This document shows positions 5,931 to 35,519 of a stretch of DNA of 38,900 nucleotides, in pieces. Position numbers and translations under genes: made by a program. The notes beneath the pieces are model-generated. The model worked only from the letters and a program-made list of their open reading frames with translations, had not been told where the DNA came from and searched no databases. Each line of letters begins with the position of its first letter. The stretch's first letter is position 1. Origin of the DNA: Methylovulum sp. (GTDB lineage: Bacteria; Pseudomonadota; Gammaproteobacteria; Methylococcales; Methylomonadaceae); contig JAURZI010000081.1 of NCBI GenBank assembly GCA_030653435.1, positions 1 through 38,900 on the forward strand, in the 5' to 3' direction.

Positions 5931-7094
5931 ATGTTTAGAGTAAGCCAGTACATGCGGGAATTGATAAGCCCTACGCCGTTAACACCGGCACGAAAACCTG
6001 CAGCGCCTGTCGTGATCTGGAATTTGATCCGCCGCTGCAACCTGGCTTGCAAACATTGCTATACCACGTCGGCGGATATTGATTTTCCGGGGGAATTGAC
6101 GACACCGGAGATTTATAGCGTGATGGATGATTTGCGGGCATTTAACGTGCCCGTGCTGATCCTGTCGGGCGGGGAGCCGCTATTGCACCCCGATATTTTC
6201 GCGATTTCGCGTCGCGCCAAGGACATGGGTTTTTATGTGGCCTTGTCCAGTAACGGCACGAAAATTTCGAAGGCTAATATTGATGACATCGCCGCCATTG
6301 ATTACCAATATATCGGCGTCAGCCTGGATGGCATCCAGGACACCCATGACCGGTTCCGTCGGATGCCGGGTTCTTTTGATGAGGCCTTGCGCGGCGTGCA
6401 TTTGTGCCTTGATAAAGGCATCAAGGTAGGTATCCGGTTTACCTTGACCCAGGATAATAACGCCGATTTCCCCGCTTTGTTGCAGTTGATGGATGATAAC
6501 GACATCGACAAATTCTATTTGTCACATTTGAATTACGGCGGGCGCGGTAACAGGAACCGCAAGGATGACGCCTTTTTTTCGATGACCCGCGAGGCTATGG
6601 AGCTGCTGTTCAATACGTGTTACGGCTGGTTACAGGCGGGTAAGGACAGGGAATTCGTCACCGGTAATAATGATGCCGATGCGGTGTTTTTTCTGCATTG
6701 GGTAGGCAAGAGATTTCCCGACCGGCTCGGGCATATCCAGGCCAAGTTGGAACAATGGGGAGGTAATGCGTCCGGCGTTAATGTCGCTAATATAGACAAT
6801 CTTGGGTATGTGCACCCCGACACGTTTTGGTGGCATTATAGCCTGGGCAATGTCCGTACACGGCCTTTTTCGGAGATTTGGCAGGACAGATCCGACCCGT
6901 TGATGGACGGGCTTAAGCAACGGCCCAGGCCTTTGGAAGGCCGCTGTGCCGGTTGCCATTATCAGGCGATATGCAACGGCAACACGCGGGTGCGGGCGGC
7001 GCAAACCACCGGGAATTACTGGGCCGAAGATCCGGGCTGTTATTTGACCGATGCAGAAATCACCGCGCCTGCTTTAACGCGCATGCCTGCATAA
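5931..7094 (+). CDS. nirJ: Heme d1 biosynthesis-type radical SAM protein NirJ
   Basis: The 387-residue protein has the radical SAM cluster motif Cys36-x3-Cys40-x2-Cys43 in RRCNLACKHCYT, then LILSGGEPLLHPDIF and VGVSLDGI-like strands typical of the fold. A C-terminal auxiliary iron-sulfur site is seen as Cys339, Cys342, Cys348 and Cys370. The N-terminus (MFRVSQYMRELISPTPL) and the PVVIWNLIRRCNLAC stretch are those of NirJ, which removes propionate side chains from a heme precursor on the route to heme d1 of cytochrome cd1 nitrite reductase. The related AhbC/AhbD enzymes of alternative heme synthesis are the main other possibility. No nirS, nirF or nirDLGH gene is nearby, so the physiological partner must be elsewhere or different. 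An AGGAGGG site precedes the start. Confidence 0.83.
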   Translation: MFRVSQYMRELISPTPLTPARKPAAPVVIWNLIRRCNLACKHCYTTSADIDFPGELTTPEIYSVMDDLRAFNVPVLILSGGEPLLHPDIFAISRRAKDMGFYVALSSNGTKISKANIDDIAAIDYQYIGVSLDGIQDTHDRFRRMPGSFDEALRGVHLCLDKGIKVGIRFTLTQDNNADFPALLQLMDDNDIDKFYLSHLNYGGRGNRNRKDDAFFSMTREAMELLFNTCYGWLQAGKDREFVTGNNDADAVFFLHWVGKRFPDRLGHIQAKLEQWGGNASGVNVANIDNLGYVHPDTFWWHYSLGNVRTRPFSEIWQDRSDPLMDGLKQRPRPLEGRCAGCHYQAICNGNTRVRAAQTTGNYWAEDPGCYLTDAEITAPALTRMPA

Positions 7095-7182
7095 AGCCGT
7101 AGCGGTGTTAGCTGTGCAAGGCAGACATGGCGCTAAGCTTAAGCGCAGGACTGAATCGGGCCGTTTTTTTAGGGGTTAAACT

Positions 7183-7911
7183 ATGTTAAAGAACCGTTTT
7201 ATCAAACAACTGTCCAGCAGCTTTCTGGATTTGCTGCCGATACTTGCAGTGGTGTTGATTTTTCAGGTTCTGGTCATACGCCAGCCTATGCCTGATGCGG
7301 CACAGCTCGTTGCCGGCACGGTCCTGGTCGTGCTGGGGCTGACGTTGTTTGTCCAGGGGCTGGAACTCAGCCTGTTCCCGATAGGCGAGGCTATGGCTTA
7401 TGCGTTTGCCCGCAAAGGCAGTTTGTCCTGGTTGCTGGCCTTTGCCTTTTGTCTGGGCTTTGGCACGACGATTGCCGAACCGGGATTGGCGGCAGTCACC
7501 AAAGAGGCGGCCGCTATTGCCAGCAAAGGCAACATCATTGCCCAAACGCTTGCGGCGCAGGAGCGTTATGCACTGGATCTGCGGGTCACGGTGGCGCTAT
7601 CGGTCGGACTGGCCATTTTGATAGGCGTCATCAGGATCATTCGGGGCTGGTCGCTACATTATCTGATGCTGGGCGGTTATTGTTGCGTGGTCGCGATCAC
7701 GCCTTTTGCGCCCGCCGATATTATCGGCATTGCCTTTGATGCGGGCGGCGTTACGACCTCAACAATCACGGTGCCGCTAGTGACCGCGCTGGGCGTCGGT
7801 TTGGCCACGGCGATTAAAGGCCGCAACCCGGTGACCGATGGTTTTGGCGTAGTGGCGTTTGCGGCCTTAATGCCGGTTATTTTTGTGCTGGTGTTCGGGA
7901 TTATCAGATGA
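7183..7911 (+). CDS. DUF1538 family membrane protein, first copy
   Basis: The 242-residue hydrophobic protein has about seven membrane segments. Two conserved stretches mark the DUF1538 family: [14 protein letters not shown] (about residues 92-105) and [19 protein letters not shown] (about 188-206), the latter followed by [10 protein letters not shown]. Polar residues in such broken-helix motifs are typical of substrate or ion sites in transporters, but no function has been established that I know of. It overlaps the next DUF1538 gene by ATGA and is about 90 bases downstream of nirJ on the same strand. Between them lie a small inverted repeat and a T7 run that could be a terminator. The start has a GGGG-type ribosome binding site nearby. 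Confidence 0.85.
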
Positions 7912-8684
7912 TCGACGCGGTAAACCATTTTTTATTGACATTGTTGGCAACCTGCCAAAATATGTTGCCGATTGCCGCGATCATTGTCGTTTTTCAGTTT
8001 GTGGTGATACGCAAGCGTTTTACCCAGCTTAAGAAAATCCTGGTCGGCTTTGCATTCGTCATATTCGGTATCGCCTTTTTTCTCGAAGGCCTGGATATGG
8101 CGCTGTTCCCGCTAGGCAAGCTCATGGCGACGCAATTGACGGCCGCTGAGTTTCTCGGCACCGGTGCCGGCGAGGTGTTGACTTGGCGGTCTTACGCCTG
8201 GGTTTATGTGTTTGCCGCCAGTGTGGGTTTTGCGACGACCTTGGCTGAGCCTGCGTTACTGGCGGTTGCCCAAAAAGCCCAGCATATCTCAGGCGGAACC
8301 ATCAATGCCTGGGGCTTGCGGCTTGCCGTTTCGCTAGGTGTTGCCTTGGGATCCACATTGGGCACTGTTCGCATCATTACCGGCATAGAGCTGTATTATC
8401 TGCTGTTCGCAGGTTATGCCATCGTTATGATACAAACGCTATTCACCCCTAAGCTGATCGTTGCGCTGGCTTATGATTCCGGGCCGGTCACGACCTCAAC
8501 CGTTACCGTGCCATTGGTTACGGCATTGGGCTTGGGTTTGGCGAGCACGGTACCTGGACGTAATCCGTTACTGGATGGCTTTGGCTTGGTTGCTTTTGCC
8601 GGTTTATTTGCGGTTATTGCGGTACTGGGCTATGCCCAATTGGCCCAGTTGCTGGGCAAAGACAAACGTTCATCTACATCGTGA
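7908..8684 (+). CDS. DUF1538 family membrane protein, second copy
   Basis: The 258-residue membrane protein is homologous to the preceding gene product. Corresponding motifs are [13 protein letters not shown] (about residues 108-120) and [19 protein letters not shown] (about 192-210), again followed by [10 protein letters not shown]. The shared order of motifs and membrane segments indicates a gene duplication that gave two non-identical subunits, probably of one heteromeric complex in the inner membrane. The start codon overlaps the stop of the first copy, which supports equal, coupled translation. The gene is followed after seven bases by a P-II-like gene. Substrate is unknown, and calling it a transporter is inference from topology and partners. 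Confidence 0.85.
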
Positions 8685-8691
8685 GGCTGTT

Positions 8692-9042
8692 ATGCATTTT
8701 AAATTGATTATCGCTTTTGTCGAAGACGATAAAACCGAGCTGACGCTGGCCACCGCGCGTGAGCACGGCGCCAAAGGCGCCACCGTGATTAATAATGCCC
8801 GTGGCGAGGGCTTGAAACAAACCAAGACTTTTTTTGGCCTGAATCTGGAATCCCAACGCGACGTGCTGATGTTTCTGGTCGAAAAACATCTCAGTCGGCT
8901 TATACTCGAAAAAATCGCCAGCGTTGCGGAGTTCGACAACAAGCCCGGTACCGGCATAGCTTTTCAGATCGATGTTGAAGACGCCATCGGTGTGTTACAT
9001 CAGATTGAAGAATTAAACCAGGAACTTGAGGATAGGCTATGA
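8692..9042 (+). CDS. P-II-like regulatory protein
   Basis: The 116-residue protein has the size and strand-helix pattern of the P-II/GlnB fold. Residues 83-91 (NKPGTGIAF) match the B-loop, and VEDAIGV follows as in P-II proteins. The T-loop region (about 36-56, GEGLKQTKTFFGLNLESQ) is unlike GlnB and GlnK and has no tyrosine for uridylylation. The protein therefore probably binds a nucleotide or small metabolite without classical modification. The gene sits between the DUF1538 pair and a CBS gene, overlapping the latter by ATGA. This suggests it gates the membrane proteins as GlnK gates AmtB or SbtB gates SbtA. The ATG at 8692 has GTGAGG seven bases upstream. The fold is fairly sure; the ligand is unknown. 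Confidence 0.82.
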   Translation: MHFKLIIAFVEDDKTELTLATAREHGAKGATVINNARGEGLKQTKTFFGLNLESQRDVLMFLVEKHLSRLILEKIASVAEFDNKPGTGIAFQIDVEDAIGVLHQIEELNQELEDRL

Positions 9043-9455
9043 GTAACAAACCGCATGTCATGCGTGTTAAGGATGTCATGAAAACCGACTTTGGCACTAT
9101 AGACCGCATTGCCACGATAGGCGATGCGCTGATAAAAATGAAAACGCTGAAAACCTCGGTGCTGATCGTCAATAAACGCGATGAAGACGATGAGTACGGC
9201 ATGTTGACTTCCGGGGATATTGCCCGTCATGTGCTGGCGAAAGACCGTGCGCCGGATCGCGTGAATGTCTATGAAATCATGAGCAAGCCGGTCATTTCCG
9301 TGCATCCTGACATGGATATACGCTATTGTTCGCGGCTGTTTGCCGACTATAATCTGGTCAGGGCGCCGGTGATAGAAAACAAGGCGATTATCGGCATGGT
9401 GAGCCCCAACTCGCTGGTGTTGGATGGCTTGTACCGGCTGTTCCAGGAAGTTTGA
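9039..9455 (+). CDS. Tandem CBS-domain protein
   Basis: The 138-residue protein consists of two CBS motifs and little else. The first spans about residues 10-65 (VKDVMKTDFGTI, then YGMLTSGDIARHVL). The second spans about 78-135 (VYEIMSKPVISVHPDMDI, then IIGMVSPNSLVLDGL). A CBS pair normally binds adenosine nucleotides and reports energy state. Here it is the last gene of the DUF1538/P-II-like operon and shares four bases with the P-II-like gene. Together they could give the membrane complex two cytoplasmic regulators, one of P-II type and one of CBS type. No catalytic domain is fused. A terminator-like hairpin follows the stop at once. Confidence 0.87.
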   Translation: MSNKPHVMRVKDVMKTDFGTIDRIATIGDALIKMKTLKTSVLIVNKRDEDDEYGMLTSGDIARHVLAKDRAPDRVNVYEIMSKPVISVHPDMDIRYCSRLFADYNLVRAPVIENKAIIGMVSPNSLVLDGLYRLFQEV

Positions 9456-9479
9456 CCAACCGGTTGGGCTGGTTTTTTT
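9455..9479 (+). terminator. Rho-independent terminator after the CBS gene
   Basis: Right at the stop codon, ACCAACC and GGGCTGGT can pair around a short loop and are followed by seven T residues (9473-9479). The position at the end of the four-gene operon fits. Confidence 0.6.
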
Positions 9480-9503
9480 GCATGATAGCCGGGGTCGTGA
9501 GCC

Positions 9504-9542
9504 GATATTTTCGAGGATAAATGGCATCCAGACGAAAATATC
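9504..9542. promoter_or_regulatory. Inverted repeat upstream of the cold-shock gene
   Basis: GATATTTTCG at 9504-9513 is matched perfectly by its complement at 9533-9542, leaving 19 bases between. It lies about 125 bases before the cold-shock start, in what may be the long leader typical of csp mRNAs. It could be an operator or a leader hairpin; nothing in the sequence decides between these. Confidence 0.35.
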
Positions 9543-9666
9543 AGTACAATTTGTGCGAGCAGAGTAAAGATGTTGAACCAGTGGAAGTCCCGTGTGCTGA
9601 GGTTGTCCGGTTATCAATGTTGTAGTTCTGTATTAACCGTAAATTTTTTATTTGAGGAGTTTTCAA

Positions 9667-9870
9667 ATGGCAACAGGCACTGTAAAGTGGTTTAACAATA
9701 CTAAAGGCTTTGGATTTATTGCACCGACGGAAGGTGGCGAGGATGTTTTCGTCCATCACTCGGTTATTCAGGGCGATGGTTTTAAAACCTTGACCGAAGG
9801 CCAAAAAGTCAGTTTCGATATCGAATCTGGCCCCAAAGGTTTAACCGCTACGAATGTTTGCCCCAATTAA
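9667..9870 (+). CDS. Cold-shock protein (CspA family)
   Basis: The 67-residue product is a single cold-shock domain. RNP1 (KGFGFIAP) and RNP2 (DVFVHHSVI) are both intact, with the leading [15 protein letters not shown] stretch. Such proteins bind single-stranded RNA and DNA and melt RNA structure at low temperature or during growth transitions. The ATG at 9667 is chosen because GAGGAG lies about nine bases upstream and the family begins at this methionine; an upstream ATG at 9652 would add five residues before the ribosome binding site. Its own terminator follows, so it is monocistronic. Which csp paralogue it is cannot be told from one copy. Confidence 0.95.
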
Positions 9871-11593: not shown

Positions 11594-13066
11594 ATGGGGC
11601 TACTCAGCACACTGCTTTGGACACCGGCGCTCGGGGTCTTGCTGTTAGCGATTATCCCTTGCCAGAACGCGAACTTCATCCGCCTGACCGCCAATCTGTT
11701 CGCGTTGCTGACTTTCTTGCTGGGCTGTTGGCTGCTAAGCCTTTATGACACGCATGATGCGGCCTTGCAGTTCAATGAATATTTTCCGCTTAACCCTAAT
11801 CTGGGCAGCGCCTACGCCTTGGGTGTCGACGGCTTGTCTATGCCTATGCTGGTGCTGGCAAGCTTGCTGACCTCGGTGGCCTTGTTGGCTTCCTTGACGA
11901 TTTCCACCAGTGTCAAGGGCTATCATATCTGCATACTGCTGCTGGAATTCGGCATGTTAGGCGTGTTTTTAGCCCAGGACTGGGCCTTGTTCTATATTTT
12001 CTGGGAAGTGACGTTAATCCCGCTGTTTTTCCTGATCGGGCGCTGGGGCGGTAAGCGCCGGCATGCGGCCAGCCTTAATTTTGTGCTGTATACGATGGGC
12101 GGGTCGGTGTTTATGCTGATGAGCCTGTTGGCAGTCAGCCAGTACGACTTGCAACACGGCGGCTCGTTAATGACATCGATGCACCAGGCGGCGCAAGACA
12201 TGCCCTTGTATGAACAAGTGTTGGTGCTGGTGGGTTTCCTGCTCGGTTTCGGTGTCAAATTGCCGATTTTTCCGTTGCACGGTTGGTTGCCGCTGGCCCA
12301 TGTGGAGGCGCCGAGTCCGGTCAGTATCCTGTTGTCTGGTATTTTGCTGAAAATGGGCGCTTACGGCCTGTTGCGGGTTGTCGTCATGTTACCGGAAGCT
12401 GCGCGCTTGCTGCAACCGTTGCTGATATTCCTGGGATTGTTCGGCATGCTTTACGGCGGCTTGCTGGCCTGGCGGCAAAGCAATCTTAAGGCGATGGTGG
12501 CGTATTCGTCGATCAGCCACATGGGTATCGTATTATTAGGCATAGCCAGCCTTAATGAGGCGGGTATTAACGGCGCCGTACTGCAAATGACGGCGCATGG
12601 CCTGATTGCCGGTGCGTTGTTTTTACTGATAGGCCTGCTTTATCAGCGCACCCATACGCTTGACATCCAGCACTACAGCTCGCTGTTGCAGGCCATGCCG
12701 CGTTTTGCGCTGATGATGATAGTGACGCTGTTCGCGGCGATGGGCTTGCCGGGTTTTGTCGGCTTTATTGCCGAACTGCATACCTTGATCGGTTGTTTTG
12801 AGCAGTGGCGCTGGTTGCCGGTGTTTTTCGGCATCGGCATGTTAATTACTGCGGCTTATTCAGTTCGCACCATCGGCCTGTTATTCACCGGCCCGGCAAA
12901 ACCGCGCATGCAGGGGCTGGAAGATTTACGCCCGTCTGAACTGCTGGCCTCCGGAGTATTGGTCGCGGGCATCATCTTGCTAGGCTTGCTGCCCGCCCGC
13001 TGGATTGATGTGTCGTCCGGCACATTGGTGCAACTGAACGGCCTCATCAAACAGCGGACCTTATAG
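11594..13066 (+). CDS. dabB: DabB: proton-conducting (NuoM/NuoL-like) subunit of the DAB inorganic-carbon pump
   Basis: The 490-residue membrane protein belongs to the proton-conducting antiporter-like family (NuoL/M/N, Mrp). Its sequence resembles the NuoM branch. Key charged residues are kept: Glu138 in IFWEVTLIPLFFLIGRWG, Lys222 in VKLPIFPLHGWLPLAH, Lys253 in LLKMGAYGLLR and Glu394 in GFIAELHTL. It is called DabB because the next gene encodes DabA. In that complex the membrane subunit is thought to use the ion gradient to drive one-way CO2 hydration by DabA. ATG 11594 is preferred over the longer frame starting upstream, because it follows an AGGGA site and gives a normal family N-terminus. 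A genuine complex I subunit is unlikely, since no other nuo gene is present. Confidence 0.85.
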   Translation: MGLLSTLLWTPALGVLLLAIIPCQNANFIRLTANLFALLTFLLGCWLLSLYDTHDAALQFNEYFPLNPNLGSAYALGVDGLSMPMLVLASLLTSVALLASLTISTSVKGYHICILLLEFGMLGVFLAQDWALFYIFWEVTLIPLFFLIGRWGGKRRHAASLNFVLYTMGGSVFMLMSLLAVSQYDLQHGGSLMTSMHQAAQDMPLYEQVLVLVGFLLGFGVKLPIFPLHGWLPLAHVEAPSPVSILLSGILLKMGAYGLLRVVVMLPEAARLLQPLLIFLGLFGMLYGGLLAWRQSNLKAMVAYSSISHMGIVLLGIASLNEAGINGAVLQMTAHGLIAGALFLLIGLLYQRTHTLDIQHYSSLLQAMPRFALMMIVTLFAAMGLPGFVGFIAELHTLIGCFEQWRWLPVFFGIGMLITAAYSVRTIGLLFTGPAKPRMQGLEDLRPSELLASGVLVAGIILLGLLPARWIDVSSGTLVQLNGLIKQRTL

Positions 13067-13193: not shown

Positions 13194-16100
13194 ATGCAAG
13201 CATCACCGTTAAAACTGGCGCAACAGCGCATGCAGCTGATCCAGGTGTTCAATCATCTGGATCATATCCTGCCCGGTCAAGGGCCGATCCTGGATTTCGT
13301 CCATCATAATACCCTGCATGGTTACCAGCATCTGCCGTTTGAAGAGGCACTGGACACGTCGGAAAGTTTGACGGGGGTATGCGGCTATTTGCCGGAAAGC
13401 GAAAGTCGGGATTTTTATCGGCAAGGCCGTATTAATGACAGCGATTTGTCCGCTGCGTTTGCTTATTATCCCGGCTTGCAGGCCGGGCAGGTCGTGTGCC
13501 GCACAGCAGATAAGAGCATCACGCGCGACATGGTTTATCGGGTCGCGCTGTTGGCCGATTTATCACCGGTCAGCACCAGCCGTCTATCGTGGCAGACACA
13601 GGTTTTAAACGCCTTGGATACGGTGCAAGCCGATGTGCCGACAGCGATGCGCGGTTTTGTGCTGGCAGGTGGCCATGAGCGGGAGGCGGTCAGGGGCTTG
13701 TGGGACAGTTTGTTAGTCAAGCTGGAGCTGGAACCGTCGGCGCTACACCCGGAGGCGATGCTGGATTTGTCGCTGGATCAGGCGGAAAGTTGGCTGACAC
13801 AATGCTTAGCGCCGGAAAACAGCGCGTCTGTTCATGCCCACACCCAACAACAGGCCAGCCTGCATCTCGATGACAAACTGGCGCAGATCGGCGACAGCCT
13901 CAGCCTGCGCGGCTTTGTGCTGGCCTTGAGCGGCACCGACATCCTCGATTGTGTCCGCCCGCAACTGATACGCATCTGCGCGTCGGCCCTAGATGAAGGG
14001 GTGGCGGCCTGGCACAACCCTGGGCGCAGCCGCTTGGGGCTTTATCGTGCCTGGCGCGCGACTCTCTGTTATGACGCCAATCTCTTTTTACACCAGTTGC
14101 CGGACTGGCAGAATAGCATTGCCGAATTGCCTGACGATGCGTTGGATACGGTTATCCTGCAACTGACCGCGCTGGACATCCCGGAAGCGCAATGGGAGGG
14201 TTATTTGCGGCGCGTGGCCTTGGAATTGCCCGGCTGGTCAGGCATGGTTAACTGGCGGCAACGGCATACCGGCTACGGCTCCAGCGATGATGTGGCGCCG
14301 ACCTTGGCCGATTATCTGGCTATCCGGTTGACCTTGGACCGTTTGTGGTTAAACCAGGTCTGCCATGATTTATGGAAAGTCGAAGCCAGGGTCGGCTCGA
14401 TACGCGCTTATTTCCGTAAAAATCTGTCCGAATTTTTGGTGCGTAAATGCCTGTACCAGGGCGATTTGCCGGAATATCTGACGCAACTGGCAGAAGCGTT
14501 GATCATTCGCGCCGGTTCCGAACGCCAGTGCCGCTCCGACTGGCAGCAACTCGCCGATCTTATCTTGACCTGGCAGCTCAGTCCTATGGCTCAAGGCACG
14601 GCAGCCAGCGCAGAAAACAGCGGTTGGCGTCTGTTTCGCTTATGCCAGCACCTGGGCTTGGGGGCCGCACAAGTGCAGGCGCTGGATAAAAGCGATTTGC
14701 TTGCGTTGTTGGCGGTGCTGGATGAATTTAATGCGGGTGAGCGCAGTAAAGTCTGGCTGTATGCGTATGAACGGCATTACCGCGAAGATTTGTTCCAGGC
14801 CTTGCGGGCCAATCATCAGCGCGGGCGTTGGGGGCAGCGCACTACGCGCCCTGAAGCGCAAATTATCTTCTGTATGGATGAGCGCGAAGAAAGTTTTCGG
14901 CGTCATCTGGAAGAGTTGAATCCGGCTATTGAAACCTTGGGAGCGGCCGGTTTTTTTGGTATCCCTATGAATTATAAAGGACTGGATACGGCGCATGTGA
15001 TACCGCTGTGTCCGGTCACGGTAACTCCAGCACATGAAGTCGATGAGATTGCCAGACAGGGTTGCGGAAAAAGACTGCTCGCGCACCGGAAAGGGCGACG
15101 CTTGTACCAGCGCCTCAATGAATGGCTACATCAGGACTTGCGCCGCAACCTGTTGGCGTCACATATTGTTATCGACTTGATCGCACCGTTTATGCTGGCA
15201 GGGCTGCTCGGTAAAACACTGTTGCCGGGTTTGCATAAGGTTGTCATCGGTTGGTTGCACCGCGCCATCGTGCCACCAGTCGCTACTGAATTACAATTTA
15301 CGTCCACCTCTGCCGAACATCGCCAACCAGGCTTTACCGATAGTGAGCAAGCCGGGCGTGTTGCTGCATTGTTGCGTACGTTGGGATTGACTCGTAGTTT
15401 TGCGCCGATTGTCGTGCTGGCAGGCCACGGTTCGACTAGCCGGAATAACCCACATGAAGCCGCACATGATTGCGGTGCTTGTGGCGGTAGGCAGGGTGGG
15501 CCGAACGCACGGGTGTTCGCAGCCATGGCAAACCGGCCCGAAGTCCGGAAAATGCTGGCGCAACAAGGGCTGCTTATTCCTGATGATTGCTGGTTTGTTG
15601 GGGTGCAGCACGATACCTGTAGCGATGCCATGAACTGGTACGACCTAGACGTGATGCCTGCAGCGAGACGTCAGGATTTCGACCGTTTCAAAGCGGTTAT
15701 TGGGCAGGCGCAAGCATTGTCCGCGCATGAACGTTGCCGACGGTTTTTCCCAGCTGACCACGCAGCTACGCCGCGCCAAGCTCATTGGCATGTCACACTT
15801 AGGGCGCAGGACTTGAGCCAGGTTCGCCCCGAATTCGGTCATGCGACAAATGCCGCCGCTGTGATAGGACGGCGCGCAGTGACTCAAGGGTTATTTTTGG
15901 ATCGACGTGTATTTCTGATTTCATACGATTCGACACAGGATCTTGACGGCAGCATCCTTGAGAACATTTTGTTGGTAGTAGGTCCGGTCGGGGCAGGCAT
16001 TAACCTGGAATATTATTTTTCTACCGTGAATAACGATTATTACGGTTGCGACACAAAAACGCCGCATAACATCACAGGGTTGTTCGGCGTAATGGAAGGA

Positions 16101-16433
16101 ACCGGCAGCGATTTACGCACGGGTTTGCCCAGGCAAATGGTGGAAATTCATGAAGCGATGCGCTTACAGGTTATCGTTGAAGCGAAAACGACGGTGTTGG
16201 AGGCCATTTATGCCCGTCAGGAAGATCTGCGCGAACTGATAGCCGGCAGCTGGATACATTTGAGCAGCAAAGATCCCGATACCGGGGAGATTTTTGTTTT
16301 TGACCCCGATACAGGCTTTGTGCCTTGGCAGGCGGAGCTTAAAGAACCTCCGGTATGTGCAACTTCGGCTGAGTGCTATCGGGATCAGACACAGCCTGTT
16401 TCGCCCAGGTTGGTTGATCCGTCGGCGATCTAG
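13194..16433 (+). CDS. dabA: DabA: CO2-hydrating zinc subunit of the DAB inorganic-carbon pump (DUF2309)
   Basis: The 1079-residue protein matches the DUF2309/DabA family from its start ([20 protein letters not shown]) to its end. The beta-carbonic-anhydrase-like zinc site is visible: Cys560 and Asp562 in [18 protein letters not shown], His745 in [19 protein letters not shown], and Cys760 in [19 protein letters not shown]. The spacing Cys-x-Asp and the 15 residues from His to Cys equal those I recall for Halothiobacillus DabA (C351, D353, H524, C539). DabA is peripheral on the inner membrane and converts CO2 to bicarbonate when driven by DabB. In a methanotroph this would supply bicarbonate for anaplerotic carboxylation. 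The start follows AGGA with suitable spacing. The protein is longer than the Halothiobacillus enzyme, as in many family members. Confidence 0.93.
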
Positions 16434-27221: not shown

Positions 27222-28514
27222 ATGAAAAATTATCTGCAAGTCTGTAAAAAACTGGCTGTCACGATTGCCGTGTCGGCTTTGATGGTCACGTCTGCACATG
27301 CGGAGGACACGATTAAAGTCGGCGTGCTGCATTCCCTGTCCGGCACGATGGCGATCAGCGAAACTACGCTGAAAGACACGATGTTGATGTTGATTGACGA
27401 GCAAAACAAAAAAGGCGGTTTGCTGGGTAAAAAGCTCGAAGCCGTCGTCGTCGATCCGGCGTCGAACTGGCCGTTATTTGCGGAGAAGGCCCGTGAATTG
27501 TTAACCAAAGACAAAGTCGCCGCGATTTTCGGCTGCTGGACTTCCGTCTCGCGCAAATCGGTCTTGCCGGTCATCGAAGAATTGAACGGCATCCTGTTTT
27601 ATCCGGTGCAATACGAAGGCGAAGAGTCTTCAAAAAACGTGTTCTACACCGGCGCTGCGCCTAATCAGCAAGCCATTCCGGCCGTCGATTATCTGATGAA
27701 CGATTTAGGGGTTAAACGCTGGGTGTTGGCGGGAACGGATTATGTCTACCCGCGCACGACCAATAAAATCCTCGAGGCCTACCTGAAATCCAAGAAAGTC
27801 GCGAAAAAAGACATCATGATTAACTACACGCCGTTCGGGCATTCCGATTGGCAAAGCATTGTCGCCGACATCAAGAAATTCGGTTCGGCAGGCAAGAAAA
27901 CGGCTGTGGTCTCGACGATCAACGGCGATGCCAACGTGCCTTTCTACAAGGAACTGGGCAACCAGGGCGTATCGGCTGAAAACATCCCGGTCGTGGCGTT
28001 CTCTGTGGGTGAGGAGGAGTTGTCGGGCATCGACACGAAACCGCTGGTCGGCCATTTGGCGGCCTGGAATTATTTCATGAGCGTTGACACGACCAAAAAC
28101 GCGGCCTTCATCAAACAATGGAAAGATTACATCAAAAATCCGAAGCGCGTGACCAACGACCCGATGGAAGCGCATTACATTGGCTTCAATATGTGGGTTA
28201 AAGCGGTCGAAAAAGCCGGCAGCACCGATCCTGCCGCCGTGCAAAACGCGATTATCGGCGTGGAATACCCGAACTTGACCGGCGGCATGTCGAAAATGTT
28301 GCCTAACCACCATATCAGCAAACCGGTGTTAATCGGCGAGATCCAGGATGACGGGCAATTTGTCACGGTATGGCAAACCAACAAACTGGTGGATGGCGAT
28401 GCGTGGTCTGATTTCTTGCCGGAAAGCAAACCCATTATTGCCGATTGGACTGCGCCTATCAGTTGCGGCAACTACAACACCAAGACCAAAAAGTGTTCCG
28501 GGCAGAATTATTGA
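27222..28514 (+). CDS. urtA: Urea ABC transporter, substrate-binding protein UrtA
   Basis: The 430-residue periplasmic protein has a signal peptide cut after about residue 27 (ALMVTSAHA). It continues with DTIKVGVLHSLSGTMAISET, the typical start of mature UrtA. The motifs GCWTSVSRKSVLPVIEELNG and LFYPVQYEGEESSKNVFYTG distinguish UrtA from general branched-chain amino-acid binding proteins, and SFLPESKP-type residues near the end are as in the family. It captures urea with high affinity and hands it to UrtBC. It is separated from urtB by a perfect long palindrome, which may make urtA mRNA more abundant than the permease mRNA. Such operons are generally under nitrogen control, but I saw no sigma-54 promoter. 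Confidence 0.96.
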   Translation: MKNYLQVCKKLAVTIAVSALMVTSAHAEDTIKVGVLHSLSGTMAISETTLKDTMLMLIDEQNKKGGLLGKKLEAVVVDPASNWPLFAEKARELLTKDKVAAIFGCWTSVSRKSVLPVIEELNGILFYPVQYEGEESSKNVFYTGAAPNQQAIPAVDYLMNDLGVKRWVLAGTDYVYPRTTNKILEAYLKSKKVAKKDIMINYTPFGHSDWQSIVADIKKFGSAGKKTAVVSTINGDANVPFYKELGNQGVSAENIPVVAFSVGEEELSGIDTKPLVGHLAAWNYFMSVDTTKNAAFIKQWKDYIKNPKRVTNDPMEAHYIGFNMWVKAVEKAGSTDPAAVQNAIIGVEYPNLTGGMSKMLPNHHISKPVLIGEIQDDGQFVTVWQTNKLVDGDAWSDFLPESKPIIADWTAPISCGNYNTKTKKCSGQNY

Positions 28515-28594
28515 CAATCTGGCTTAGGCTAGCGGCTCCCGGCATTTAATGCTGCGGGCCGCAGCTTACGCCAACCTGCAAACTGCCACAGAAA

Positions 28595-28664
28595 GTAGGG
28601 TACGCAACGCGTACCTTTTGGTGATGGGCACAACATTCAAAAAGGTACGCGTTGCGTACCCTAC
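28595..28664. repeat. Perfect 25-bp GTAGGGTACGC palindrome between urtA and urtB
   Basis: The arm at 28595-28619 (GTAGGGTACGCAACGCGTAC then CTTTT) is exactly complementary to 28640-28664, with a 20-base loop. It is the best-preserved copy of the TACGC-type family here. It ends 11 bases before the urtB start, leaving only AGGA between them. In the transcript it would form a very stable hairpin separating urtA from urtB. Confidence 0.9.
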
Positions 28665-28675
28665 CAGGACATACG

Positions 28676-30325
28676 ATGAACAGCCTTCCCTTAATACGAC
28701 ACTTTAAATGGCTTGCGGTGCTGATGCTGGTCTGTTCGCTGGCGGCGCACGGCGGCCAGGATACAGCGGTGGCGCATCCGTGGCTGGATGCGCTGGACGG
28801 TCTGAAACAAGGCTCGATGCCGGAACGCGAACAAGCCATTATCAAGCTCGGCGACATCAAAGATTCGCGCAACTTGGGGATCTTGCAGGCCTTGCTCGAC
28901 GGCAAGTTATTTATTGCCAAAGCCGATGCCAGGCTGCTGATAGCGACCGATAACCACCAGGGTTTTGATGCCCGTGATGCGCTCAGCGGCGAAACTCTGG
29001 GCGCTATGGGCCATGACGCGATCACCAAAATTAATTTGACGAACAAAATGCGCGGCACGCTAAGGAAAATCATCGGCCAATTGGAATTGACCGCCGATGA
29101 CCCGGCGGTAAGGCTGGCGGCAGTCAAGGCCATGGCTAAGGCTGCGGACGAAAAAGACCTGGCCTTATTGCGGGCTCGCGCAGAGCAGGAACAGGATGGC
29201 GATGTGCGGCAAGCCATCAACGTGGCGTTGCTGTTGCGGGACATGGACAGCGATGACAAAGCCGTGCGCGTCATGGCGATTGAAGCCTTGAAAGCGTATA
29301 ACAGCCAGGATGTGGCTAACCGTTTAAACGCGATGGTGGAAAAAGATGAAAACGGCGAGTTTTTGGAAGCGGATGCCGACATCAGAAATCTGGCCAAAGC
29401 GTCGTTGATCAACATCAACGCACGCTTGCAGTGGTACAGCGCAATAGAAACGGTATTTTTCGGTTTGAGCCTGGGCGCGGTGCTGGTGTTGGCGGCAATC
29501 GGCCTGGCCATCACTTTTGGCGTCATGGGCGTTATCAATATGGCGCATGGCGAATTGATGATGCTGGGCGCTTATACCACTTATGTCATGCAGCAACTGA
29601 TGCCCAATTACCTGGGGGTTTCGTTGTTGCTGTCGATTCCGGCGGCGTTTGTCATTTCGGCGCTGGTAGGCATTGCGATCGAGCGCGGCATTATCCGTTT
29701 TTTGTACGGCAGGCCGCTGGAAACCTTGCTGGCCACGTTCGGCGTCAGTCTGATCCTGCAACAAAGCGTACGCTCTATTTTTTCGCCGTTAAACCGTAGC
29801 GTCGCGACGCCGGAATGGATGAGCGGTTCGTGGCAAATCAATGATTTTTTATCGCTGACCTGGAACCGCTTTTATATTCTGGTGTTTTGTTTGTTGGTGT
29901 TTGTCATGCTGTTGCAAATCCTCAAACGCACGAAGTTGGGCTTGGAAGTGCGGGCGGTGGCGCAAAACCGCAAAATGGCCAGGGCGATGGGCATTCCCAC
30001 CGATAAAGTGGATGCCATGACGTTTGGCCTGGGTTCAGGCATTGCCGGCGTGGCCGGTGTGGCGTTAAGCCAGATCACCAATGTCGGCCCGAATCTGGGG
30101 CAGGCTTATATCGTCGATTCGTTTATGGTCGTCGTGTTCGGCGGCGTCGGCAATTTGCTGGGAACATTGGTTGCCGGTTTTTCGTTAGGGATAGCCAACA
30201 AGTTTTTGGAGCCGTTCGCCGGCGCGGTATTGGCGAAGATCCTGGTGCTGGTGTTTATCATCTTATTTATCCAGAAACGCCCGCGCGGCCTGTTTCCTCA
30301 GAAAGGTCGGGCGGCGGATTCGTAA
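28676..30325 (+). CDS. urtB: Urea ABC transporter, permease UrtB
   Basis: From ATG 28676 the protein has 549 residues. ATG 28676 is chosen because it follows CAGGAC after a few bases and begins a signal-like segment (FKWLAVLMLVCSLAAHGG). A long N-terminal region of about 240 residues with helical repeats precedes the permease part, as is normal for UrtB. From about residue 255 the LivH-like permease domain has many membrane segments, including GVMGVINMAHGELMMLGAYT and FGVSLILQQSVRSIF. It forms the channel with UrtC in the inner membrane. The longer frame from 28652 would start inside the palindrome and is rejected. Confidence 0.95.
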   Translation: MNSLPLIRHFKWLAVLMLVCSLAAHGGQDTAVAHPWLDALDGLKQGSMPEREQAIIKLGDIKDSRNLGILQALLDGKLFIAKADARLLIATDNHQGFDARDALSGETLGAMGHDAITKINLTNKMRGTLRKIIGQLELTADDPAVRLAAVKAMAKAADEKDLALLRARAEQEQDGDVRQAINVALLLRDMDSDDKAVRVMAIEALKAYNSQDVANRLNAMVEKDENGEFLEADADIRNLAKASLININARLQWYSAIETVFFGLSLGAVLVLAAIGLAITFGVMGVINMAHGELMMLGAYTTYVMQQLMPNYLGVSLLLSIPAAFVISALVGIAIERGIIRFLYGRPLETLLATFGVSLILQQSVRSIFSPLNRSVATPEWMSGSWQINDFLSLTWNRFYILVFCLLVFVMLLQILKRTKLGLEVRAVAQNRKMARAMGIPTDKVDAMTFGLGSGIAGVAGVALSQITNVGPNLGQAYIVDSFMVVVFGGVGNLLGTLVAGFSLGIANKFLEPFAGAVLAKILVLVFIILFIQKRPRGLFPQKGRAADS

Positions 30326-30339
30326 TTCGATTTAGCCGG

Positions 30340-30364
30340 AAAAGGTGCGCGATGCGTACCCTAT
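30340..30364. repeat. Single arm of the TACGC-type palindrome between urtB and urtC
   Basis: AAAAGGTGCGCGATGCGTAC followed by CCTAT matches one arm of the urtA-urtB palindrome with a few changes. No partner arm is present in the 100-bp gap, so it is a half or decayed copy. Confidence 0.6.
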
Positions 30365-30425
30365 ATTGATTTTCGTGGACAAATAGCTTTTCCGAGACCG
30401 ATCAAAACATTCATAAGGTTCTGAT

Positions 30426-31517
30426 ATGAAATTAATAGCATTAGGCCAGGATAAAACCTGCACGGCGGTGCTGATGGCGCTGGCGGCGGTGACATTTATC
30501 ATCCCGTTCTGCAATCTGGTGTTCCCCGCCGATTCGCCGCTGCATTTTTCCGCTTATACCGTGTCGGTGCTGGGCAAATACCTGACGTTCGCGCTACTGG
30601 GCCTGTCGCTGGATTTGGTCTGGGGCTATTGCGGCATACTGGCGCTGGGCCACGGCGCGTTTTTCGCGTTGGGCGGTTATGCGATGGGCATGTATTTGAT
30701 GCGCCAGATCGGTACGCGCGGCGTCTACGGCGATCCTTTATTGCCGGATTTTATGGTGTTCCTGAACTGGAAAGAACTGCCCTGGTATTGGCACGGCTTC
30801 GACCACTTCGGGTTTGCATTGCTGATGGTCGTGCTGGCGCCCGGCGCATTGGCTTTTGTGTTCGGCTGGCTGGCGTTCCGTTCACGGGTCACCGGCGTGT
30901 ATTTGTCGATCATGACCCAGGCCTTGACTTATGCCTTATTGCTGGCGTTTTTCCGCAATGAAATGGGCTTCGGCGGCAATAACGGCCTGACCGATTTTAA
31001 AGATCTGCTGGGCTTTAACATTCAGTCCGAAGCGGTGCGCGCCGTGTTGCTGATGCTGTCGGGCATGGCCTTGATCGCCGCCTTCCTGCTCTGCCGCTGG
31101 TTGGTCAACACCAAGTTGGGGCGCGTAGTCACGGCGATACGCGACCAGGAATCGCGGGTGCGTTTTCTGGGCTATCGCGTCGAAATGTTCAAGCTGTGGA
31201 TCTTCGTGTTCGCGGCGATGCTGGCAGGTATTGCCGGCGCGTTGTATGTGCCGCAAGTCGGCATCATCAATCCCAGCGAGTTTTCGCCGCTGAATTCCTT
31301 GGAAATCGTCATTTGGGTGGCGATGGGCGGGCGCGGCACCTTGTACGGCGCCATCATCGGCGCGGTGCTGGTCAATTACGGCAAAACCGTGTTGACGGGC
31401 CTATTGCCGGAAATCTGGTTGTTTACGTTAGGCGCCGTGTTTATTGTCGTGACGGTGTTATTGCCAGACGGCATAGTCGGCTTGATGCGGCGTCGTTTAC
31501 AGGGGCAGCAGGCATGA
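30426..31517 (+). CDS. urtC: Urea ABC transporter, permease UrtC
   Basis: The 363-residue LivM-like permease has about ten membrane segments. Family stretches are LGLSLDLVWGYCGILALGHG (about residues 58-77), followed by AFFALGGYAMGMYLMR. The later segments RVVTAIRDQESRVRFLGYR and NPSEFSPLNSLEIVIWVAMG belong to the part that contacts the ATPases. It pairs with UrtB to form the transmembrane path. Its end overlaps the urtD start by ATGA. The start has AAGG a few bases upstream. Nothing in the sequence suggests damage. Confidence 0.96.
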   Translation: MKLIALGQDKTCTAVLMALAAVTFIIPFCNLVFPADSPLHFSAYTVSVLGKYLTFALLGLSLDLVWGYCGILALGHGAFFALGGYAMGMYLMRQIGTRGVYGDPLLPDFMVFLNWKELPWYWHGFDHFGFALLMVVLAPGALAFVFGWLAFRSRVTGVYLSIMTQALTYALLLAFFRNEMGFGGNNGLTDFKDLLGFNIQSEAVRAVLLMLSGMALIAAFLLCRWLVNTKLGRVVTAIRDQESRVRFLGYRVEMFKLWIFVFAAMLAGIAGALYVPQVGIINPSEFSPLNSLEIVIWVAMGGRGTLYGAIIGAVLVNYGKTVLTGLLPEIWLFTLGAVFIVVTVLLPDGIVGLMRRRLQGQQA

Positions 31518-32338
31518 ACACGTATGCGGAAAACCTGTTTGATGAGAACGACAAAATCAGCCTGGGTCATTTATTTGTCGAAGGGCAGGTCGATACCCGC
31601 CATGGGCCGATTTTATATATGGAGGATGTCAGCGTCAGTTTCGACGGCTTCAAGGCCCTGAACAAGCTGTCTTTATATATTGATGCAGGCGAGTTGCGCT
31701 GCCTGATCGGCCCCAACGGCGCGGGCAAGACCACGCTGATGGATGTCATCACCGGTAAAACCCGCCCCGATACCGGTTCGGTATTTTTCGGGCAAACCAT
31801 AGACTTGTTGCAAATGGACGAGCCCGCGATTGCCCAGGCGGGTATTTGCCGGAAATTTCAAAAGCCCAGCGTGTTCGATGCGCTGACGGTGTTTGAAAAT
31901 CTGGAGCTGGCGTTAAAAGCCGACAAGCGCACATGGCCGACATTGTTCTTTCGCTTAACCGGCGAGCAACGCGACCGTATTAACCATATTCTGGAAACGG
32001 TGGGTTTAAGCGCCTTGCAGCAAGCCCGCGCCGGCATACTCTCGCATGGGCAAAAGCAATGGCTGGAAATTGGCATGTTATTGATGCAGGAGCCTAAAGT
32101 CATGCTGGTCGATGAACCGATAGCGGGCATGACGCATCAGGAAATCGAACGCACGGCGGAGCTGTTAGTGTCGCTGCAAGGCCAGCAATCTATTGTCGTG
32201 GTTGAGCATGATATGGAATTCGTGCGTTCGATTGCGCGGAAAGTCACCGTGCTGCATGAGGGTTCGGTATTGACCGAAGGCACGATGGACGAAGTGCAAA
32301 ACGACCCGCGCGTCATTCAAGTTTATTTGGGGGGCTGA
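31514..32338 (+). CDS. urtD: Urea ABC transporter, ATPase UrtD
   Basis: The 274-residue LivG-like ATPase begins at ATG 31514, overlapping urtC by four bases. The much longer open frame starting at 31196 lies within urtC and is not used. Walker A (GPNGAGKTT) is at residues 66-74. The signature region is LSHGQKQWLEIGMLL, and Walker B with the catalytic Glu is VMLVDEPIAGMT. The switch His is in VVEHDMEFV. The N-terminal 35 residues before the first strand are longer than in LivG, as usual for UrtD. It shares one base pair of its stop with the urtE start (TGATG), so translation is coupled. Confidence 0.96.
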   Translation: MNTYAENLFDENDKISLGHLFVEGQVDTRHGPILYMEDVSVSFDGFKALNKLSLYIDAGELRCLIGPNGAGKTTLMDVITGKTRPDTGSVFFGQTIDLLQMDEPAIAQAGICRKFQKPSVFDALTVFENLELALKADKRTWPTLFFRLTGEQRDRINHILETVGLSALQQARAGILSHGQKQWLEIGMLLMQEPKVMLVDEPIAGMTHQEIERTAELLVSLQGQQSIVVVEHDMEFVRSIARKVTVLHEGSVLTEGTMDEVQNDPRVIQVYLGG

Positions 32339-33120
32339 TGCTAAAGATCAACGCATTGCAACAATATTACGGCGAAAGCCATACCTTGTGGGATTTGGAG
32401 CTGAATGTGCCGGAGGGGGCTTGTGTCTGTTTGATGGGGCGCAACGGTGTCGGCAAAACTACCTTGTTAAAAGCCATCATGGGACTGGTTCCGGTCAGGG
32501 GCGGCACGATGGCAATGGACGGTCAGCCCTTGGCTGACGGCAAGGCCGAAAAACGCGCCGAACTCGGCATAGGCTATGTGCCGCAAGGGCGGGAAATCTT
32601 TCCGTTACTGACCGTGGAAGAAAACCTCAAAACCGGCTTGCGGGCCGCCCGTAAGCACGGCATCAAAAAAATACCCGAGCATATCTACGATATTTTTCCG
32701 GTGTTGAAGCAGATGCTCAATCGGCGTGGCGGCGATTTGTCCGGTGGCCAGCAGCAGCAATTGGCGATAGGACGCGCTTTGGTGCTGAATCCGCGTTTAT
32801 TGATTTTGGACGAGCCCACCGAAGGCATACAACCGAATATTGTCAGCGAAATCGGCGATGTCATTATCCGTCTCAACCGCTCTCGCGGCACACCGCTAGC
32901 GATGCCTAAACCCAACCCTTATGCTTTGGGCGAAGTGCATGAGGCCATCAACAAAATTAATCAGGAGTTAGGCGTGACGGTGTTGCTGGTTGAGCAAAAA
33001 TTACCGTTTGCCCGAAAAGTCGCAGATCGCTTTTGCATTATGGACAGGGGACGGAATGTCGCGGTTGGCGCAATGGATGAATTGACCGAAGGCATGGTGA
33101 AACAGTATTTAACGGTTTGA
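32338..33120 (+). CDS. urtE: Urea ABC transporter, ATPase UrtE, with an internal insertion
   Basis: The LivF-like ATPase has 260 residues, whereas UrtE proteins are usually about 230. Walker A (GRNGVGKTT) is at residues 34-42, the signature LSGGQQQQLAIGRAL at about 134-148, and Walker B LLILDEPTEG at about 154-163. The extra length is an insertion of about 28 residues after EIGDVIIRLN (near 181-208, containing GTPLAMPKPNPYALGEV), just before the strand VTVLLVEQKLPF that carries the switch region. The frame is intact and all ATPase motifs are kept, so the protein may still work. The insertion is close to the position between Walker B and the switch loop, where it could affect the ATPase cycle. 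Confidence 0.93.
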   Translation: MLKINALQQYYGESHTLWDLELNVPEGACVCLMGRNGVGKTTLLKAIMGLVPVRGGTMAMDGQPLADGKAEKRAELGIGYVPQGREIFPLLTVEENLKTGLRAARKHGIKKIPEHIYDIFPVLKQMLNRRGGDLSGGQQQQLAIGRALVLNPRLLILDEPTEGIQPNIVSEIGDVIIRLNRSRGTPLAMPKPNPYALGEVHEAINKINQELGVTVLLVEQKLPFARKVADRFCIMDRGRNVAVGAMDELTEGMVKQYLTV

Positions 33121-33173
33121 TGGATTTGTGGATGCGGGAAGGTATCGCGTTTTTTAGCTAATCAACGGTTTTC

Positions 33174-33199
33174 AAAACGGCGCACGATGCGTATCCTGC
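33174..33199. repeat. Degenerate single arm of the TACGC-type palindrome between urtE and hupE/ureJ
   Basis: The sequence AAAACGGCGCACGATGCGTA then TCCTGC resembles one arm of the repeat at 30340, with several changes. It lies in the 150-bp gap after urtE, where nothing else could be named. Confidence 0.45.
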
Positions 33200-33270
33200 T
33201 TATTTCGTGGTACATTCATCACCTCCCCAAGTTTCGACTTGGCAACCTGTAAAAATAATGAGGAACTGTT

Positions 33271-33852
33271 ATGAAAGTAAAATCATTGGGCGTATTGGCC
33301 GCTTTATTGTCATTGTTATCATTACCTGTCTACGCGCATACCGGCATCGGCGCAGTACATGGCTGGCTAGATGGCGTGTTGCACCCGTTAATCGGCATCG
33401 ACCATTTATTGGTCATGCTGGCGGTGGGTTTATGGGCCGCGATGCGCGGCGGGCGGTCGTTATGGTTGTTGCCAACGGCATTTTTAACGGCAATGGGCGC
33501 AGGTGCGGGTTTATCCTTGCTCGGAGTCACCGTCGCGGCGGCGGAAAGCTGGGTTGCGGTTTCGGTAATAGCTTCTGGCCTGTTGGTATGGCGTAACACG
33601 CGTATGTCAGCCGTTTTGGCAACGGCCTTAGTCGCGGTCTTCGCACTCGCTCACGGTTATGTCCATGCCTTGGAACTTACGGACGGCACCGACGCGCTGG
33701 CCTATTCGGCAGGCTTTTTGTTGACCACGGCTGTGCTGCATGGCTTGGGTGTTGCGGTTGGCTTATTGGCGGCGGCCAGGTTGAAAATGCTAGGCGCCGG
33801 GTTTGGCTTGGTCTGCGCTGTGGTTGGGTTGGGTTTTTTGGCTGGGGCTTGA
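33271..33852 (+). CDS. ureJ: HupE/UreJ-family membrane protein (probable nickel permease)
   Basis: The 193-residue protein starts with a signal-like segment ending PVYAHTG. Six or so further membrane segments follow. The family motif HPLIGIDHLLVMLAVGLW (about residues 36-53) provides His and Asp residues proposed to bind a metal, and a second His-containing stretch is FALAHGYVHALEL. HupE and UreJ proteins accompany hydrogenases and ureases and are thought to import nickel. With ureD and ureABC just downstream, nickel supply for urease is the natural reading; no hydrogenase gene is present. GAGGAA precedes the ATG. The symbol ureJ is chosen by context. Confidence 0.88.
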   Translation: MKVKSLGVLAALLSLLSLPVYAHTGIGAVHGWLDGVLHPLIGIDHLLVMLAVGLWAAMRGGRSLWLLPTAFLTAMGAGAGLSLLGVTVAAAESWVAVSVIASGLLVWRNTRMSAVLATALVAVFALAHGYVHALELTDGTDALAYSAGFLLTTAVLHGLGVAVGLLAAARLKMLGAGFGLVCAVVGLGFLAGA

Positions 33853-33933
33853 GTTGGCTTAAGCTCTGCAGACAGTGCCTGGAAAAGAAAGCTTATAGTC
33901 AGTATATAAATACTCAACGCGGGTAATCGCATA

Positions 33934-34779: not shown

Positions 34780-34806
34780 TTAACCAGGAATGGCGTTTGC
34801 CCTTTT

Positions 34807-34826
34807 ATCAATCAATCAATCAATCA
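34807..34826 (+). repeat. Tetranucleotide repeat (ATCA)5 before the GDCCVxC gene
   Basis: Five tandem ATCA units end 14 bases before the ATG of the small cysteine-rich gene. Slippage could change the spacing of its translation signals. With five units, variation would be slow, and no effect can be shown from sequence. Confidence 0.7.
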
Positions 34827-34840
34827 ACCAAGAAAAATAA

Positions 34841-35059
34841 ATGCCAACACTCATCCTTGAATCAACAGTCACTTGTCCAGAATGCGGTCATACAAAACTG
34901 GAGATCATGCCAACTGATGCTTGCCTGTGGTTTTATGAATGCGAAGCTTGTCATGGGCTGCTACGCCCGAAGGCCGGTGATTGTTGTGTTTTTTGTTCTT
35001 ATGCCACGATACCGTGCCCACCTATGCAGCAAAGTGGTAAAAATTGCTGTAGCCAATAA
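34841..35059 (+). CDS. Small cysteine-rich GDCCVxC-motif protein
   Basis: The 72-residue protein has two CxxC-type pairs: Cys12 and Cys15 in TCPECGHTK, and Cys35 and Cys38 in YECEACHGLL. It then has the motif GDCCVFCSYATIPCPPMQ (about residues 47-64) and a final CC. It belongs to the small family named for the GDCCVxC motif, in which one cysteine position is selenocysteine in some organisms; here all are ordinary Cys codons. The fold suggests a zinc ribbon. Function is unknown; relatives I recall occur near metal or metalloid genes. Its place between ureD and ureA is unusual and could point to a role in nickel handling, which is speculation. Confidence 0.8.
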   Translation: MPTLILESTVTCPECGHTKLEIMPTDACLWFYECEACHGLLRPKAGDCCVFCSYATIPCPPMQQSGKNCCSQ

Positions 35060-35160
35060 CATTATGTGGGTTTCGTTGTCGGCATTTTTTGCTTGCAATA
35101 TCAACACATCAGTGGCGCACCATTGAAATCAACCTTCTTTTGTGAATACTGGAAACCACT

Positions 35161-35463: not shown

Positions 35464-35519
35464 GTCGCGCTGACGCTTTTATGCCCTATGGGTAACCTCA
35501 ACACATTTTAGGAGACGCC

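Follow-up and report, generated by a model that had tools for sequence, protein, structure and literature searches.

A UmpAB-type DUF1538 gene pair with P-II-like and CBS-domain genes in Methylovulum: conservation, natural fusions and a proposed regulated cation:proton antiporter

The DUF1538 membrane proteins UmpA and UmpB of Halomonas zhaodongensis were reported in 2017 as a paired Na+(Li+,K+)/H+ antiporter. According to the excerpted text of that report (PMC5484666), a cloned 4.2-kb fragment, on which umpA and umpB are the last open reading frames (ORFs) described, let an antiporter-less Escherichia coli grow in salt, UmpA and UmpB form a heterodimer as judged by co-immunoprecipitation, and vesicles containing UmpAB carry out antiport of Na+, Li+ and K+ against H+, which is highest at pH 9.0. 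P-II proteins are described as gates on other transporters, with trimeric P-II proteins blocking trimeric transporters in the GlnK-AmtB and SbtB-SbtA systems, and P-II control is apparently restricted to transporters able to be trimers (PMC10710835, excerpted text). Here we describe a window, by which we mean the whole 38,900-nucleotide stretch analysed from contig JAURZI010000081.1 of Methylovulum sp., in which two adjacent DUF1538 genes are followed by a gene for a P-II-like protein and a gene for a pair of CBS domains (Table 1). The operon probably encodes a UmpAB-type monovalent cation:proton antiporter together with cytoplasmic P-II and CBS regulators of its own, for which we infer the docking, the ligands and the sign of regulation.

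The DUF1538 pair and its assignment to UmpAB

Both window proteins exceed the curated cut-off of PF07556 (22.6 bits), contain the noted motifs, including TTIAEP, and are 42% identical to each other, and their genes form part of a tightly packed unit with 4-base overlaps at 7908-7911 and 9039-9042 and a 7-base gap at 8685-8691, the P-II-like gene being taken to start at the ATG at 8692 (a longer listed ORF begins at an upstream TTG). On these points the initial annotation, which had described two homologous multi-pass proteins and starts and stops that overlap or nearly touch, was confirmed. It had also placed a terminator after the operon; a hairpin with a T run is indeed found there but is unexceptional, 47 of 200 shuffled sequences folding equally well. 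No sigma-70-like promoter was seen in 7095-7182 when 7000-9700 was scanned. The window genome (4.66 Mb) holds this single DUF1538 pair.

The best NCBIfam models for the pair are those of UmpA and UmpB, the subunits of a Na,Li,K/H+ antiporter. Near-orthologs of UmpA were found at 423-448 bits in 7 of 121 Halomonadaceae genomes, the family of a genome (G130) whose locus shares 94.8% identity with H. campaniensis DNA, and none of the 121 passed the UmpA equivalog cut-off. In four of the Halomonadaceae loci the window UmpA is 56-59% identical to the UmpA near-orthologs, and UmpA and UmpB together are 51-59% identical to their counterparts. The Glu of AEP and the Asp preceding GGV/GPV do not vary across the loci up to L272 (rows scoring above 100 and free of stops), as E99 and D186 in 233 of 233 UmpA rows and as E114 and D190 in 229 of 229 UmpB rows. 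Three Arg, two Asp and one Glu are common to both window proteins at motif positions, each being kept in at least 230 of 233 UmpA or 226 of 229 UmpB rows, and by our own matching these correspond to the six charged residues (3 Arg, 2 Asp, 1 Glu) that UmpA and UmpB are stated to share in the excerpted text of PMC5484666. The identity to the near-orthologs and the conserved charged residues suggest that the window pair is a UmpAB-type cation antiporter. It resembles UmpAB as described in the excerpted text in being an overlapping gene pair for homologous proteins of the same family, with seven helices each and conserved charged residues, and differs in that it scores below the equivalog cut-offs, so that the same function can be predicted but not assigned, and in that P-II and CBS are absent from the publication: the terms P-II, PII and CBS occur nowhere in its excerpted text. 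As umpB is the last ORF described on the 4.2-kb fragment, the genes that follow it were probably off the clone.

The initial annotation had proposed an undescribed transporter, which was not borne out, since DUF1538 pairs are the UmpAB antiporter published in 2017; its view that the two proteins form a heteromeric transporter agrees with the co-immunoprecipitated UmpA-UmpB heterodimer (PMC5484666, excerpted text). It had further read the position near nitrogen and inorganic-carbon genes as a hint at ammonium or bicarbonate. Under this alternative the DUF1538 pair would be an ammonium or bicarbonate channel or transporter gated by P-II in the manner of GlnK-AmtB or SbtB-SbtA, as might be expected from the presence of AmtB and SbtA among the known P-II-regulated transporters (PMC10710835, excerpted text) and of Dab, urea-transport-like and urease genes in the same window. 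However, the only activity that we found measured in the family is Na+(Li+,K+)/H+ antiport (PMC5484666, excerpted text), the window's Dab genes have no match in any other fetched locus (E 1e-15), and the invariant charged residues that the Halomonadaceae proteins carry are also present in those of the window. We regard an ammonium or bicarbonate transporter as improbable, and a substrate deduced from the neighbourhood was rejected because the neighbouring genes compared, save one for a cold-shock protein, do not recur in the fetched loci.

Linkage of the P-II and CBS genes to the pair

For the conservation of the unit, loci L001-L272 were fetched by DUF1538 and not by P-II from a sampled subset of the DUF1538-bearing genomes, with adjacency profiles built partly from the same loci. 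Among 232 distinct DUF1538 pairs recognised, 176 had at least 750 bases downstream, and P-II came next in 171 of them (12 in the same chain), which is the gene linkage known from P-II-gated transporters. The CBS gene followed in 120 of the 167 pairs with at least 1500 bases downstream. The conserved adjacency of DUF1538, P-II-like and CBS genes for which a search had initially been proposed is thus present, and the four-gene arrangement is conserved far beyond chance. Of the five exceptions, one (L169) has P-II upstream of the pair, two (L164, L272) have it on another contig, in the case of L164 with CBS there as well, and two (L177, L179) have none adjoining and other P-II copies elsewhere in the genome. 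The adjacency of DUF1538 and P-II covers four phyla, the named loci including Campylobacterota, Halomonas, Marinobacter, Thioalkalivibrio, Desulfobulbaceae and a Scalindua; in the phylum of the latter, DUF1538 was found in 4 of 149 genomes and P-II adjoined it in all four, three times beside a divergent fused form.

The two families also occur together at the level of genomes. DUF1538 is present in 63 of 81 relatives of the window genome and in 126 of 398 genomes of its phylum, Pseudomonadota. Using a profile (A2) of the operon P-IIs, which among the relatives gave 60-160 bits as against 20-30 for ordinary P-II, we counted by hand from two tables a P-II of at least 60 bits in 62 of the 63 relatives with DUF1538 and in none of the 18 without; in the single relative lacking it (G015), the one DUF1538 gene sits at a contig end. 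Among the 398 phylum genomes (E 1e-15), 121 held both families, 5 held DUF1538 only and 5 held P-II only.

Twelve Campylobacterota proteins of approximately 638-674 amino acids (L079-L089 and L093, that of L079 being cut at a contig end) combine both DUF1538 domains and P-II in one chain, and their loci contain no separate P-II or CBS gene. Pfam P-II was above its cut-off of 25 bits in all five fusions checked (25.7-34.7 bits). In the Halomonadaceae, P-II directly follows umpB in eight of eight genomes, namely the seven with near-orthologs and one Halomonas assembly (G482) in which umpA is broken, and CBS was seen in five of these eight units. Two loci (L213, L215) carry a complete umpAB-pii-cbs unit with separate genes and, adjoining it, a second complete unit in which UmpAB is fused, as well as a second P-II after the fused unit.

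Adjacency, co-occurrence and natural fusions together make it likely that this P-II is a dedicated regulator of UmpAB. P-II and CBS could instead signal the ion or energy state of the cell to other targets, sharing an operon with umpAB for co-expression alone, as may be suggested by lineages in which paralogs from the P-II's own subfamily neighbour unrelated genes and by two genomes (G164, G236) in which a P-II-CBS pair stands apart from umpAB. We find this unlikely, given the twelve single-chain UmpA-UmpB-PII fusions and an adjacency of 171 in 176 extending over four phyla.

Table 1. Positions of the operon genes, of other window features and of related loci (window coordinates unless a locus is named)
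Feature	Position	Strand	Score or remark
umpA-like gene, DUF1538 membrane protein, 242 aa	7183..7911	+	Pfam PF07556 221.5 bits
umpB-like gene, DUF1538 membrane protein, 258 aa, basic C-terminal tail	7908..8684	+	PF07556 217.7 bits
P-II-like protein, 116 aa, KTFFGL replacing canonical tyrosine T-loop	8692..9042	+	Pfam P-II 37.2 bits
Stand-alone CBS-domain pair, 138 aa	9039..9455	+	Pfam CBS 63.5 bits, two stretches
Candidate intrinsic terminator, hairpin and seven T	9449..9479	+	weak against shuffles, z -0.68
Clade P-II beside Kef-type antiporter	L273:1216-1563		
Clade P-II beside Kef-type antiporter	L274:5533-5880		
Solo clade P-II near SH3_3 gene, with channel gene	L285:4850-8575		
Extra small ORF after P-II	L338:2624-3010		Planctomycetota
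Extra small ORF after P-II	L339:2623-2949		Planctomycetota
Extra small ORF after P-II	L340:2640-3077		Planctomycetota
Cold-shock protein gene	9652-9870		
DabB-like gene	11594-13063		Proton_antipo_M
DabA gene	13194-16430		832 bits
ORF of 1224 aa	16577-20248		
ABC transporter genes and urease alpha	27222-37549		

Regulators, membrane fold and predicted mechanism

The window P-II was recognised by Pfam above the 25-bit cut-off, its AlphaFold2 model (mean predicted local distance difference test score, pLDDT, 84.5, with the T-loop lower) matched P-II, GlnK and CPII structures in Foldseek, and its T-loop reads KQTKTFFGLNLESQ, with no tyrosine. It therefore has the P-II fold without the uridylylation tyrosine, as initially annotated, and is not a canonical GlnB/GlnK; of 12 control P-II proteins, 9 carry the canonical T-loop HTELYRGAEY unchanged, two of the other three keeping the tyrosine in a variant loop and one being without it. 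The B-loop GxG is present in the window P-II (FDNKPGTGIAF) and in both fusion rows aligned and absent from six aligned rows adjoining fused UmpAB. Counterparts in four Halomonadaceae loci are 60-65% identical to the window P-II. In a quick tree of 93 rows, made of 81 chosen from 261 distinct sequences plus the 12 controls, the operon P-IIs separated from the GlnB/GlnK-type controls with a Shimodaira-Hasegawa-like approximate likelihood ratio (SH-aLRT) of 99, and the P-IIs adjoining fused UmpAB and those inside fusions came together in a single 29-row set (18 rows, 10 rows and a solo row whose branch is very long; SH-aLRT 100) that spans Gammaproteobacteria and Campylobacterota. One fused case (L142) falls outside this set, the P-IIs beside separate genes form no single group, and 47 of 89 forks are open, many of the inner ones unresolved. 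By this grouping, the P-II for the most part follows its transporter type.

In comparison with GlnK-AmtB, the likeness lies in a P-II gene adjoining a transporter gene, in the P-II fold and in a T-loop that is the presumed contact, whereas the window P-II lacks the canonical tyrosine, belongs to a separate clade, accompanies another transporter with another substrate and has an additional CBS gene beside it. In SbtB-SbtA a sodium-coupled secondary transporter, that of cyanobacterial bicarbonate, is under the control of a P-II-like protein, and the P-II end of a fusion model (see below) matches SbtB and CPII structures. The window P-II contains no cysteine, however, and hence no SbtB-type redox loop, and it stands next to a CBS partner, while a DUF1538 profile matched no SbtA or other transporter chain in the Protein Data Bank (PDB) at E 10.

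CBS pairs bind adenine nucleotides. The fourth gene encodes a bare pair of this kind, as had been stated initially, with Pfam finding CBS alone in its 138 residues. Among solved structures, a profile comparison placed the CBS part of CBS-CP12 (PDB 5nmu, E 4e-38) nearest to it, CBS-CP12 being a cyanobacterial CBS fusion whose CP12 domain is absent from the window protein.

To describe the membrane part we used a model of one UmpA-UmpB-PII fusion (L080; pLDDT 81, predicted template modelling score 0.72), in which helices are broken at TTVAEP and at the second motif in both halves. Outstanding PDB matches were confined to its P-II end. VcINDY rows from the Foldseek comparison had TM-scores of 0.15-0.23 and were set aside, and no DUF1538 sequence relative was found in the PDB, the search giving one row at E 0.56. 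In 27 fused rows the linker varies from hydrophilic to weakly hydrophobic, its 19-residue maxima being -0.38 to 1.44 where the flanking helices reach 1.6 to 2.7, so that no additional hydrophobic helix is seen between the halves of the fused forms. Since each half has seven helices and none is added in the fused forms, the halves would be oppositely oriented, and given these orientations, a P-II domain attached at the UmpB C-terminus would be cytoplasmic. Mean charges over 140 separate UmpA and 140 UmpB rows were basic at the UmpA N-terminus, acidic at the UmpB N-terminus and basic at the UmpB C-terminus, for the most part in line with opposite orientations. An inverted topology of UmpA relative to UmpB is thus predicted from sequence and a single model.

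In the mechanism that we propose, UmpA and UmpB would form a pseudo-symmetric heterodimer of opposite membrane orientations, with seven helices each of which two are broken, and the likely cation and proton sites would be two invariant residues, the Glu at the TTxAEP helix break and the Asp next to the break at VTTSTxTVPL. The P-II, presumably a trimer, would dock on the cytoplasmic face near the UmpB C-terminus and set antiport activity in response to an adenine-nucleotide-type signal, and the CBS pair may supply a second input, either a nucleotide or ionic strength. That P-II gates UmpAB, with CBS as an auxiliary, is taken by analogy with the systems above, and because P-II control is apparently restricted to transporters that can be trimers (PMC10710835, excerpted text), a trimer of UmpA-UmpB heterodimers is predicted. 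The likely purpose would be extrusion of Na+ or K+ and control of pH only when the influx of protons is affordable.

Several observations weigh against this proposal. Neither window DUF1538 protein reaches its NCBIfam equivalog cut-off (UmpA 342 versus 490 bits, UmpB 300 versus 500), and Foldseek found no match in the PDB to the membrane part of the fusion model at E <=0.001. Both halves have a basic GRNP loop, which gives no indication of opposite orientations. Genomes with one family and not the other were found in both directions among the 398, and assemblies from Persephonella, Verrucomicrobiia and Nitrospirota contain DUF1538 and no P-II of the clade (three of the eight named genomes searched whole). 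In all three the DUF1538 gene reaches or nearly reaches a contig end, so an assembly gap is a possible explanation and we have left our estimate unchanged. In some lineages, P-II paralogs stand beside DusB, SH3-domain, MutS and ETF-QO genes rather than transporters. The CBS gene is missing from 47 of the 167 units, and the role of its protein is the weakest part of the proposal. Of the two cytoplasmic regulators envisaged by the initial annotation, it is the P-II that is likely to be a dedicated one. Finally, UmpAB functions in E. coli in the absence of P-II and CBS (PMC5484666, excerpted text), so that the regulators are dispensable for basic activity. This suggests modulation, which is likelier to be restraint than activation.

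This last observation also bears on whether P-II and CBS might be assembly or stability factors for the heterodimer rather than sensors. A tight A-B-PII-CBS order and fusion would also be expected of structural subunits, and the six aligned rows without the B-loop GxG would fit such a role. On the other hand, P-II and CBS proteins belong to ligand-sensing superfamilies, the GxG is kept in the window P-II and both aligned fusion rows, and UmpAB was made and active without either protein (PMC5484666, excerpted text). There seems little chance that assembly is their role, and we favour the antiporter with P-II as its regulator.

Coupling of P-II or CBS to UmpAB was unreported among the matches listed in the literature searched, with the reservation that the 2024 Selim and Alva review on P-II-like proteins may mention the link; the coupling looks new, the component families being known. 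If true, a cation/proton antiporter would for the first time be seen under P-II control, a CBS protein acting as a second sensor, and the P-II proteins, whose known roles are in the uptake of nitrogen and inorganic carbon, would gain one in the control of salt, potassium and pH. The published UmpAB would then need to be reread as a transporter assayed without the genes that follow umpB in its near relatives. With the fusion proteins, regulation could be tested directly on a single polypeptide.

P-II copies away from umpAB and neighbouring genes

That this P-II is exclusive to UmpAB was considered and rejected, as 17 further P-II loci have no typical DUF1538 pair beside them, although one of these (L291) has a weak UmpA-like stretch. 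According to Pfam, the neighbours at 11 of the 17 are DusB with a two-component system, SH3_3, MutS, ETF-QO, amino-acid-kinase and others. Two relatives carry a second P-II beside a 658-660-residue antiporter with Na_H_Exchanger, TrkA_N and TrkA_C domains, a combination that we take to be the Kef type, and both genomes also hold the usual operon. This count over the 81 relatives leaves aside one genome (G038) with P-II and DUF1538 on two contigs, each near an end. Kef-type K+/H+ antiporters belong to a Pfam membrane family other than DUF1538, and the link of P-II to them, seen in these two cases within the window's own family, is no more than suggestive. A broader proposal, that the P-II clade is a distinct and widespread signalling class serving mainly to control monovalent-cation:proton antiporters (UmpAB in four phyla, the Campylobacterota fusions and the Kef type) and that UmpAB is a trimer of inverted heterodimers, is one that we hold tentatively and judge somewhat more likely to fail than to hold.

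Among the solitary copies, L285 has a clade P-II near an SH3_3 gene and, further on the same strand, an Ion_trans/TrkA_N/TrkA_C channel gene, and L286 and L290, from distant phylum genomes, have a clade P-II beside an ETF-ubiquinone oxidoreductase, L286 with an SH3_3 protein as well. Three Planctomycetota loci show an extra small ORF after P-II, which in L340 lies between P-II and the CBS gene and in L338 and L339 resembles P-II by eye near the start of the T-loop, with no Pfam P-II match.

Within the window, the DabB-like and DabA genes, an inorganic-carbon accumulation pair, lie 2.1 kb downstream of the operon, and the ABC transporter genes (Peripla_BP_5, BPD_transp_2 and two ABC_tran; "urea-type" in our own naming) are accompanied by urease alpha. 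The Dab, 1224-residue ORF, amino-acid permease, radical-SAM, CFA-synthase and cold-shock genes were compared with the ORFs of the fetched loci at the threshold given above for Dab; many loci have short flanks, and 109 distinct units besides the window's have at least 3.5 kb downstream. The 1224-residue ORF had no Pfam match at E 0.001 and none in the fetched loci, and the permease had one weak match (L134, 87 bits). The cold-shock gene, which follows the operon, is the only compared neighbour that recurs, with matches in 16 other loci, 13 of them in the same family.

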